Source: Streptomyces sp. NBC_00102
GTDB lineage: Bacteria; Actinomycetota; Actinomycetes; Streptomycetales; Streptomycetaceae
Assembly: GCF_026343115.1 (NCBI RefSeq)
Contig: NZ_JAPEMC010000001.1
Span: 5,559,001-5,623,000 of the forward strand
Reading direction: 5' to 3'
Length of the DNA stretch: 64,000 nt
Part shown: piece by piece, positions 18,272-20,261 of the stretch
Numbering within the stretch: the first letter of the stretch is position 1
How the letters are laid out: each line of letters starts with the position of its first letter
Position numbers and translations under genes: made by a program
The notes under the pieces: model-generated
What the model saw: the letters and a program-made list of their open reading frames with translations, nothing else
What the model was told of the DNA's origin: nothing
Database searches by the model: none

Positions 18272-19567
18272 CTACCGGCCCCGGGCCTCGGTACCCGCCT
18301 CCGCGGCAGTGTTCCGCGGTACCGGGCTCTGTGGGAGCTGCCAGCCGCCGCCGCGGTCCTCCTTCGACCACCGGGCGACCAGGCCGGGGACGTGCAGCTT
18401 GCAGGCCAGAGCGGTGGCGGACAGGAAGGCGTCGATCGCCCGCCGGGTCGTCGGCAGGCCTACGCGCAGGACGCGAGGGTTCACCTCGGCCTGGATCTCG
18501 TCGACGAAGGGCCGCAGCACGGTGTCGTAGTTCGCCAGCGCGGTCGGCAGGTCGTCCGGGTGCCGGTTGATCTCGCCGGCCAGGACGTAGGCGCCGACCA
18601 GACCGCCGGAGACGCCCATGCCGCTGTACGGGGAGGCACAGTGCGCGGCGTCGCCGGCCAGCACCACGCGGCCCTCGGACCAGGTGCCGGTGCGTACCTG
18701 GAGGATCTCCTGGGAGTAGAAGAAGGGGCTCTCCTTCATGCCCGCGACGAAACGTTCCGTCTGCCATCCCGCGTCGCGGAATCTGTCGGCCCAGAAATCC
18801 TGCCGGCGCTCGACGGGCTCCCGGTGGACCGCCGATGCCTCCTCGGACTCCTCCCGGAGCACGAAGTACACCTGCGTCTCGGTCGGGTTGTGACTGCGGC
18901 GCATGATCTGGCGGCCGCCCGGGACCATGTAGGTGTCCCGGACGTCGCTGTCGGAGGCGATGCGGGGGACGAACCAGTAGGCCATGTGGATGCCGACCCG
19001 CCAGTACGGGTCGGAGCCTTCCGGGAGGATCGCCCGCCGGATGCGTGAGCCCTGCCCGTCCGCGCCGACCAGGAGGTCGAACTCTCCGGTCGATCCGTCG
19101 GAGAACCGCGCGACGACCTTGTGCTCGTCCTGCTCGAAGCCGTCCACGCTCAGGCCGAAGACCTGACGCACGCCGCCTTTCGCCGCGTCGGCGAGTATGC
19201 GCACCAGATCCCCGCGCATGATCTCGTACTCGGACGTCAGGGTCTGCCGGCCCCGGCCGGAGGTGTTGGCCATGATCGTCGCCCTGGCCCGGCCGCGGGA
19301 GTCCACGAAGGCGACCCCCGGCTCGTCCACCAACTCGGCGCGGACCGCGTCGAGGAGCCCCATCCGCTCGATCGCCTCGATGCCCTGGCCGCGGAGGTCC
19401 ACCTGGGCGCCGGTGGACCGCAGGGCCGGGAAGCGTTCGGCGACGGTCACCCGGTGGCCGCCCCGGGCGAGCCAGTAGGCGACCGCCTGCCCCGCGACCC
19501 CGCCACCGGCGACCAGGATCCGCAGGACCCGTGCCCCCGATCCGCGCTCCATGGACGTCACGGTCAT
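18272..19567 (-). CDS. TetX-like FAD-dependent monooxygenase
   Basis: Group A flavoprotein monooxygenase of 431 residues. It shows the Rossmann FAD motif (LVAGGGVAGQAVAYWLARGG), a DG motif (LLVGADGQGSRIR) and the GD motif with downstream loop (LAGDAAHCASPYSGMGVSGG). The stretch TGAQVDLRGQGIEAIERMGLL followed by RGDLVRIL resembles tetracycline destructases of the TetX type. The start at 19567 has GAGG 8 bases upstream; the in-frame ATG at 19615 would run through both operator sites. It is divergent from a TetR-class repressor with tet-like operators between, so it is probably an inducible drug- or polyketide-modifying enzyme. Substrate is not provable here. Confidence 0.85.
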   Translation of the reverse strand: MTVTSMERGSGARVLRILVAGGGVAGQAVAYWLARGGHRVTVAERFPALRSTGAQVDLRGQGIEAIERMGLLDAVRAELVDEPGVAFVDSRGRARATIMANTSGRGRQTLTSEYEIMRGDLVRILADAAKGGVRQVFGLSVDGFEQDEHKVVARFSDGSTGEFDLLVGADGQGSRIRRAILPEGSDPYWRVGIHMAYWFVPRIASDSDVRDTYMVPGGRQIMRRSHNPTETQVYFVLREESEEASAVHREPVERRQDFWADRFRDAGWQTERFVAGMKESPFFYSQEILQVRTGTWSEGRVVLAGDAAHCASPYSGMGVSGGLVGAYVLAGEINRHPDDLPTALANYDTVLRPFVDEIQAEVNPRVLRVGLPTTRRAIDAFLSATALACKLHVPGLVARWSKEDRGGGWQLPQSPVPRNTAAEAGTEARGR

Positions 19568-19584
19568 GGCCGATACCTCAAAAT

Positions 19585-19597
19585 CTATCAGTGAATG
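19585..19597. promoter_or_regulatory. tetO-like operator, proximal to the monooxygenase
   Basis: CTATCAGTGAATG matches the tet operator core CTATCAGTGATAG of Tn10 at 11 of 13 positions; the left half-site is exact. It lies 18 bases before the monooxygenase ATG. Its centre is 31 bp from the centre of the second operator, close to the spacing of the two Tn10 operators. Confidence 0.6.
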
Positions 19598-19602
19598 GTT
19601 CT

Positions 19603-19644
19603 TCGCCAGAGTCATCTATCGGCGATAGATTGTCAACGTGACAA
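19603..19644 (+). promoter_or_regulatory. Divergent promoter region of tetR and the monooxygenase
   Basis: Rightward: TAGATT (19626-19631) sits 6 bases before the GTG of tetR, so this transcript is probably leaderless. Leftward: a perfect TTGACA is read on the minus strand at 19636-19631, with the 17-bp operator exactly filling the following spacer; the -10 (GACTCT) is poor. A further palindrome, TTGTCA-ACG-TGACAA (19630-19644), covers the tetR start. Confidence 0.5.
19614..19630. promoter_or_regulatory. tetO-like operator between the divergent promoters
   Basis: ATCTATCGGCGATAGAT is a palindrome with perfect 8-bp arms around one central base. Its core CTATCGGCGATAG keeps the CTATC/GATAG arms of the tet operator and changes only the inner A/T pair to G/C. 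It lies immediately upstream of tetR and occupies the spacer after the leftward TTGACA. Confidence 0.8.
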
Positions 19645-20261
19645 AGATGAACCGCGAGACCGTGGTCGCCGAGGCGCTCGGTCTGCTCGACGAAGTCGGA
19701 CTGGACGCTGTCAGTACCCGGCGGCTGGCGAAGCGGCTGGGCGTCGAGCAGCCCTCGCTCTACTGGCACTTCCGCACCAAGCGAGAACTCCTCGACGCCA
19801 TGGCGGCGGCCGCCATGGCGCCCCACGCGACTGCTCCGCTGCCCGAGCGCGGGGACGACTGGCGGGCCTGGTTCCTCGACAACACGCGCAGCTTCCGGCG
19901 TGCCCTGCTGGCGCGCCGCGACGGGGCGCGGCTGCATGCGGGCAGCACCCCCGTCGGTGACCTCGACCGGATTCGCCGCAAGATGGACTTCCTGACGGCT
20001 TCGGGCGTCCCGGAGCGGGACGCGCAGATGGCGATGCTGGCCGCGAGCCGCTTCACGGTCGGCAGTGTGCTGGAGGAGCAGGCGGACAGTGCCGCCGGCG
20101 CTACCGATGTGGCCGGTCCTTCCGGTGCCTCCGGTGCTTCCGGTGCTTCCGGGGAGGGTGCGGGGCTTCCGGCCGACGTGCCCGAGATCGGTCACGAGTC
20201 GGCCTTCGAGGCCGGGCTCGCCCTCATCCTCGACGGCCTCTCGCGCCGCACGGCGGAGTAG
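19638..20261 (+). CDS. TetR-class transcriptional repressor (tetracycline repressor-like)
   Basis: Helix-turn-helix repressor of 207 residues. Unlike most TetR-superfamily proteins it resembles TetR itself along its whole length. The DNA-reading segment LGVEQPSLYWHFRTKRELLDA keeps Gln38, Pro39, Tyr42 and His44. In the effector domain, SFRRALLARRDGARLH keeps Phe86 and the magnesium ligand His100, Asn82 is present, and the second metal-binding Glu is kept in FTVGSVLEEQ. His64 of TetR is Ala here. A Gly/Ala/Ser repeat is inserted near 155-170. It probably controls the divergent monooxygenase through the tetO-like sites. Confidence 0.9.
   Translation: MTKMNRETVVAEALGLLDEVGLDAVSTRRLAKRLGVEQPSLYWHFRTKRELLDAMAAAAMAPHATAPLPERGDDWRAWFLDNTRSFRRALLARRDGARLHAGSTPVGDLDRIRRKMDFLTASGVPERDAQMAMLAASRFTVGSVLEEQADSAAGATDVAGPSGASGASGASGEGAGLPADVPEIGHESAFEAGLALILDGLSRRTAE

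Follow-up and report, generated by a model that had tools for sequence, protein, structure and literature searches.

What does a TetR-type repressor respond to when the gene that it faces encodes an oxygenase and no tetracycline efflux pump? The question is raised by two divergent genes of Streptomyces sp. NBC_00102, lying in a 64,000-nucleotide stretch of contig NZ_JAPEMC010000001.1 (positions 5,559,001 to 5,623,000), which is referred to below as the window. The genes, which encode a flavin adenine dinucleotide (FAD) monooxygenase and a TetR-type repressor, are flanked by an AI-2E-type transporter gene on one side and by recA on the other, and the 70-bp gap that separates them carries two tet-operator-like sites. 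On balance, the pair and its operators (the module) are somewhat more likely than not to form a self-contained switch that is induced by an aromatic polyketide able to chelate Mg and serves to detoxify it; this compound is probably no classical tetracycline. TetR serves as the model of a ligand-controlled repressor, and natural relatives that share its DNA code but bind a different ligand would reveal how drug specificity shifts while DNA specificity stays. The main features are as follows.

18272..19567, minus strand: FAD-dependent class A monooxygenase of 431 amino acids, ATG at 19567 (PF01494, 84.4 bits; divergent in 47 of 48 loci)
19638..20261, plus strand: TetR-type repressor of 207 amino acids, GTG start at 19638 (PF00440 and PF02909; nearest solved chain 3fiw)
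19616..19628, no strand: operator O1, CTATCGGCGATAG, with perfect half-sites (conserved in 48 of 48 rows)
19585..19597, no strand: operator O2, CTATCAGTGAATG, with one half-site intact and the other altered (conserved in 47 of 48 rows)

The operator pair

An earlier reading of this DNA made from the sequence alone (the sequence-only reading) proposed a tandem-operator divergent switch over the monooxygenase. Its operator pair was found as described, with CTATCGGCGATAG at 19616-19628, CTATCAGTGAATG at 19585-19597 and the two centres 31 bp apart. The sites were compared in 48 rows, comprising the window and 47 loci; these are related sequences and were not weighted, the locus L091 was left out, and L015 and L016 were dropped as repeats of L063 and L065. 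O1 retains at least nine of the ten specified bases in all 48 rows and all ten in 46, counted over a range wide enough to include loci whose gap is one base longer. At least eight of the ten bases of O2 are retained in 47 rows (seven in L064), the distance between O1 and O2 equals 31 bp in 41, and TGTCA closely follows O1 in 45. The Tn10 core given in the sequence-only reading, CTATCAGTGATAG, stands at O2 in both rhizobial loci and in two loci of Nocardia. Within the 75 bp before tetR, one perfect site was obtained in 2 of 20,000 dinucleotide shuffles and an equally good pair in none. The conservation settles that the operator pair exceeds chance.

The promoter elements of the gap are listed below.

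19631..19636, minus strand: putative monooxygenase -35 element, TTGACA (O1 inside the spacer; layout as in tetR-tetA units)
19608..19613, minus strand: candidate monooxygenase -10 element, GACTCT, weak (17-bp spacer; columns moderately conserved)
19626..19631, plus strand: candidate tetR -10 element, TAGATT, overlapping O1 (columns conserved)

In the leftward direction, TTGACA (complement of 19631-19636) precedes the 17-bp stretch 19614-19630 holding O1, in agreement with the sequence-only reading. For classes A, B, C, D and G, the gap between tetR and tetA likewise contains TATC-type palindromes, with TGTCAA directly after the tetR-proximal one. The order is the same in the module, which indicates that a TTGACA with an operator as its spacer is shared by both systems; the tandem-operator divergent layout as a whole also occurs in tetR-tetA units. 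The tetR start codon lies 6 nucleotides past its candidate -10 element, and the tetR message may therefore be leaderless.

Kinship of the repressor

The best NCBIfam match of the repressor is the TetR model NF010319, at 209.1 bits and below the cut-off of 265; none of the 396 genomes of the phylum searched, its own included, has a match to this model over the cut-off. The nearest solved chain is 3fiw, followed by TetR(A) and TetR(G). Its sequence places the 3fiw protein, a putative TetR-family regulator, in the module clade (a match of 303.6 bits that spans nearly the whole protein). We take it to be locus SCO0253 of S. coelicolor, and no published function for it was found in the open-access literature.

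Phylogenetic trees were reconstructed on chosen rows; the first used 67 of 106, omitting 39, and the second used 37 of 116. The module rows form one side of a branch in both trees (100/99). The resistance TetRs also form one side of a branch, with values of 96/86 for seven rows and 99/95 for eight; the eight-row set consists of seven resistance classes and one chromosomal TetR, with classes E, H, J and others left out. The two groups are joined against the other TetR_C_1 rows at 89/95 in the first tree and 98/90 in the second. By these trees the repressor clade is sister to the tetracycline-resistance TetRs, not inside them.

The description of the regulator as a genuine TetR in the sequence-only reading is therefore right about close kinship, and too strong about membership. 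Membership in TetR proper was rejected on score, on clade and on two drug contacts, since the repressor falls short of the family cut-off, is placed outside the resistance clade as the sister of the seven classes and the chromosomal TetR, and lacks both His64 and Gln116. The suggestion of an ancestral form is not borne out either; the tree gives sister groups and not an ancestor with its descendant.

DNA-reading and pocket residues

The resistance TetRs of classes A, B, C, D, G, Z and 33 resemble the module repressor in fold, in DNA-reading and Mg-site residues, and in two CTATC/TTATC-type operators in the divergent gap. The EQPSLYWH segment reported by the sequence-only reading is present, and Asn82, Phe86, His100 and Glu147 of the repressor align with the TetR(B) residues. 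Residues were compared in 50 module rows, namely the window, L044-L090, a Frondihabitans copy and a plasmid copy from S. anthocyanicus; L091, which matched over 98 residues, was not among them. The DNA-reading residues Thr27, Arg28, Gln38, Pro39, Tyr42 and Lys48 are kept in all 50, and so are Asn82, Phe86, His100, Pro105 and Glu147.

Two further tetracycline contacts are altered in the window repressor (His64 to Ala, and Gln116 to Lys). At position 64, 45 of the 50 rows have Ala and no row has His; at position 116 all 50 have Lys and no row has Gln; whereas His64 and Gln116 are both present in 7/7 resistance TetRs. Position 109 is Asp in 49 rows and position 131 is Gln in 47. The resistance TetRs combine His64 and Gln116 with TetA as the target; the module, as a separate sister clade, combines Lys116 and the loss of His64 with a monooxygenase, and instead of a divergent tetracycline efflux pump the monooxygenase is found in 47 of 48 loci.

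TetR(A) was also used as a query over 394 genomes of the class, and the best three foreign matches were L189, L190 and L192. The L189 TetR has a full tetracycline pocket, with His64 and Gln116, and faces a TetA-like pump of the major facilitator superfamily; whereas L192, which has Ala64 and Lys116 and faces the monooxygenase, belongs to the module. In the rows seen, pocket type and target gene therefore co-vary. L190 has Gln38, His100 and Gln116 but Leu64, Asp82 and Lys86, faces another protein of the same superfamily, and judging from these residues is a third pocket type near the module branch.

More distant relatives are also informative. Other Streptomyces TetR_C_1 regulators face FAD monooxygenases divergently, with two palindromes in the gap and, in most printed rows, TGTCAA beside the tetR-proximal one, as in the module. 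However, position 38 is Ala in 26 of 27 of them (Gln in the module and the resistance TetRs), their operators are of the CTTAAC-GTTAAG type, Mg-site residues are missing, and their monooxygenases are only 25-28% identical to the module enzyme. Gln38, Asn82, Phe86 and His100 each occur in 0 of these 27 relatives. In L133-L145, regulators with Ala38 have CTTAAC-GTTAAG palindromes upstream of tetR; residue 38 and the operator type change together in the printed rows.

Residue 44 of the repressor (codon 19769-19771) is one of the DNA-reading positions, and 30 of the 50 module rows have Tyr there. This residue was set against positions 19593-19597 of O2 in 48 rows: all ten rows with a full O2 have His44, all 29 rows with Tyr44 have an altered O2, and nine rows have His44 with an altered O2. 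Common ancestry may explain this association.

The monooxygenase

The enzyme is a class A FAD monooxygenase (PF01494, 84.4 bits against a gathering score of 22), and its sequence contains the FAD motifs GGGVAG and GDAAH. The sequence-only reading called it TetX-like. This was loose, and kinship to Tet(X) was rejected on the score with the model NF033111, which is 44.9 bits where the cut-off demands 750. Closest among solved enzymes are the type-2 tetracycline destructases, at about 30-33% identity. All six chains that a family profile recovered from the solved structures (211-226 bits, E up to 1e-30) are destructases by entry title or molecule name; two of them carry the molecule name 6-hydroxynicotinate 3-monooxygenase under the titles Tet(56-2) and Tet(56-3).

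The destructases Tet(50), Tet(51), Tet(55) and Tet(56) belong to the same class of FAD monooxygenases, but they differ from the module enzyme in their low identity, in the family cut-off, which it does not reach, and in the lack of a firm joining branch. The window enzyme scores 196.1 bits with the tet_destruct model (NF033476), below its cut-off of 550, and 220.4 bits with PRK07588, below 454; the best E-value favours PRK07588 over tet_destruct in 20 of 20 members. Identity to the window enzyme is 35-41% for uncharacterised plasmid relatives, 33% for Tet(51) and 30% for Tet(55). The tree joins the module enzyme with five of these plasmid relatives (82/88, weak) and not with Tet(51) or Tet(55); it holds only these two destructases, as partial segments, and support for its deep branches is low (82/88 and 84/55). 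Destructases fill the first 16 Foldseek rows, but these carry little weight, as the query was a poor model (mean predicted local distance difference test score, pLDDT, 58.1). As regards the second C-terminal helix, the gatekeeper, of type-2 destructases, the model shows additional C-terminal helices, but pLDDT there is mostly below 50. Destructase-like chemistry is plausible. In the available text of two destructase papers, 'TetR' does not occur as a whole word and no TetR is named beside the destructases (PMC5988894, PMC7229144).

A second TetR-family gene beside an FAD monooxygenase was seen on the tet(Z) plasmid pAG1 (L097:13746-16049), adjoining tetR(Z). That monooxygenase, 34% identical to the window enzyme, clusters with one from Kitasatospora that has a TetR-type gene opposite it; the TetR beside it is unlike the module repressor.

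Recurrence and mobility of the gene pair

Protein search of genome contigs yielded 48 loci, 47 of them with a divergent monooxygenase adjoining tetR and one, L091, a fragment. Among the 47, the monooxygenase of L065 is only a 96-residue match, and those of L072 and L076 match in two frames. As a check on further data, 16 loci were obtained from further genomes of the family; six have a TetR identical to that of an earlier locus over the compared stretch, and ten do not. Both operators and Lys116 are present in 10/10 of the new-TetR loci, with a near full-length divergent monooxygenase in eight, a partial one in L165 and a remnant in L168. These loci are related sequences and not independent events.

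Clustering of the flanking open reading frames (ORFs) revealed no gene family with more than six occurrences among the 47 loci and the window. A wider conserved operon was rejected, since the largest flank families (up to six members) look like shadow frames over the monooxygenase. The recurrence of both operators, together with the absence of a widely shared flanking gene, marks the gene pair as a moving two-gene cassette. In 29 Streptomyces relatives, the distance from the transporter match to recA is 141-776 bp in 13 and 1.1-1.3 kb in 6, with recA outside the stretch in 10. The measured spaces are too short for two genes, whereas the window has about 2.5 kb; the pair was thus probably inserted beside recA.

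A match of at least 301 bits was found in 17 of 297 Streptomycetaceae genomes, the next match being 227.5 bits. Copies also occur on Streptomyces plasmids and, beyond the actinomycetes, in Neorhizobium and Rhizobium (L070, L076), the latter two with a perfect CTATCAGTGATAG at O2. Kitasatospora aureofaciens, the famed chlortetracycline producer, is among the carriers (L046). No description of the cassette was found in the open-access literature, which mostly does not cover subscription journals; a divergent layout of TetR regulator and oxidoreductase is noted for Streptomyces in general terms in the available part of one report (PMC3511530).

Another target gene was sought in the odd loci, and only pieces of the monooxygenase were found (28 matched residues in L168, 78 in L165, and 96 in L065 and L016, taken from the separate matches as they stand). 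The tetR gene and operators look intact in L165, L168 and L065, where the monooxygenase is partial or a remnant.

Proposed mechanism and alternative explanations

In the mechanism proposed, a TetR-type dimer bound to O1 and O2 would block its own gene and the monooxygenase gene. The repressor on O1 would cover the candidate tetR -10 element and the spacer of the monooxygenase promoter, with O2 in the presumed monooxygenase leader. A ligand entering the C-terminal pocket would be held through Mg2+ (His100 and Glu147) against Asn82 and Phe86 and would release the dimer; the monooxygenase gene would then be expressed, and the enzyme would oxidise the ligand or a close relative. DNA binding by the repressor is very likely, and repression of the monooxygenase is highly probable. 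A Mg-dependent ligand is reasonably probable, and oxidation of the inducer by the monooxygenase equally so.

The ligand would most likely be an aromatic polyketide that chelates Mg through a keto-enol edge. The best-known relatives of both components handle tetracyclines, so the first guess is a tetracycline-shaped chelating polyketide. However, His64 is gone and Lys replaces Gln116, which suggests that the ring-A end of the ligand differs from that of the tetracyclines; with this end of the pocket re-tooled, a classical tetracycline becomes less likely, and the ligand is probably something else.

Several observations weigh against the proposed switch. Over the whole window, 2.11 operator matches at up to two mismatches are expected by chance and two were observed; in the 8.6-Mb genome the motif occurs at up to one mismatch in 2 places, which is not above the reversed control. 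With both counts at chance level the motif alone is weak, and it is position and conservation that carry the case. O2 is imperfect in the window, and its full palindrome is present in only 10 of 48 rows. A sigma-70 consensus scan of the gap found no promoter, and the promoters were assigned by eye. The key induction residue Thr103 is Ser in 37 of the 50 module rows, Thr in 10, and Val, Asn or Cys in 3. Finally, changes at the two altered contacts do not abolish binding in Acinetobacter TetR(G). In the available part of that study, His64, Asn82 and Phe86 were the most important residues for tetracycline binding, and the Mg ion was bound by His100 and, through waters, by Thr103 and Glu147'; yet the His64Ala variant was still somewhat stabilised by tetracyclines except minocycline, and Gln116Ala still bound minocycline (PMC8326586). 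Since such variants bind some tetracyclines, the pocket changes favour another ligand without proving it.

Three other readings compete with the polyketide switch. The module might be a tetracycline switch proper, with tetracycline as the releasing ligand and a tetracycline destructase as the enzyme. The sister relationship to the tetracycline repressors, the Mg site with Asn82 and Phe86 kept in every module row, and the destructases as nearest solved enzymes (and as first Foldseek rows, with a poor model) agree with it; but the complete loss of His64 and Gln116, the tet_destruct score far below its cut-off and the weak grouping of the enzyme with uncharacterised monooxygenases make this reading unlikely. 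It is also conceivable that the repressor is a broad, Mg2+-independent sensor of small aromatic or quinone compounds with a housekeeping oxygenase, as many Streptomyces TetR_C_1 regulators face FAD monooxygenases of another lineage without having Mg-site residues. Asn82, Phe86 and His100, which are missing in 27 of 27 such relatives, are all kept in the 50 module rows, and a broad sensor is accordingly quite unlikely.

The enzyme could instead tailor or turn over a product of its own host, with no role in detoxifying an incoming compound. Some carriers are producers of aromatic polyketides, K. aureofaciens for example; whereas the lack of a shared flanking family, the small fraction of Streptomycetaceae genomes that carry the pair and its copies in rhizobia and on plasmids leave this explanation improbable.

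For the polyketide switch, a wider picture can be offered tentatively, with somewhat more doubt than confidence. In the sister branch, operators, promoter arrangement and Mg site may have been preserved, while the far end of the pocket was re-tooled (His64 lost, Lys116, Asp109 and Gln131) for a different Mg-chelating polyketide and the switch was wired to an enzyme that destroys it. There would be one switch with two pockets and two outputs, a pump or an oxygenase, and the oxygenase form would move among actinomycetes and into rhizobia. The cassette would provide a natural series in which operators and Mg site are constant, and pocket end and output gene are changed. Identifying the ligand would name a compound met by soil bacteria often enough for a dedicated destroyer, and the repressor might be developed into a laboratory tool that answers to a different inducer.

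Minor features of the locus

19575..19579, minus strand: likely monooxygenase ribosome-binding site, GAGGT (read by eye; 7 nucleotides upstream of the ATG at 19567)

The mechanically called monooxygenase ORF is longer, with 447 amino acids from 19615, and would cross O2. A second genomic site, a perfect CTATCRNYGATAG at G000:C1:1988604-1988616 (L001) near GntR-type ORFs, was considered as a further operator and set aside, being no more than the control expects; apart from it and the one in the window, the genome has no CTATCRNYGATAG site when one mismatch is allowed. Within the repressor, an Ala/Ser/Gly-rich stretch (GASGASGASGEGA, about 20093-20170) follows the GSVLEEQ helix and is absent from 3fiw; the DNA that encodes it is a short repeat.

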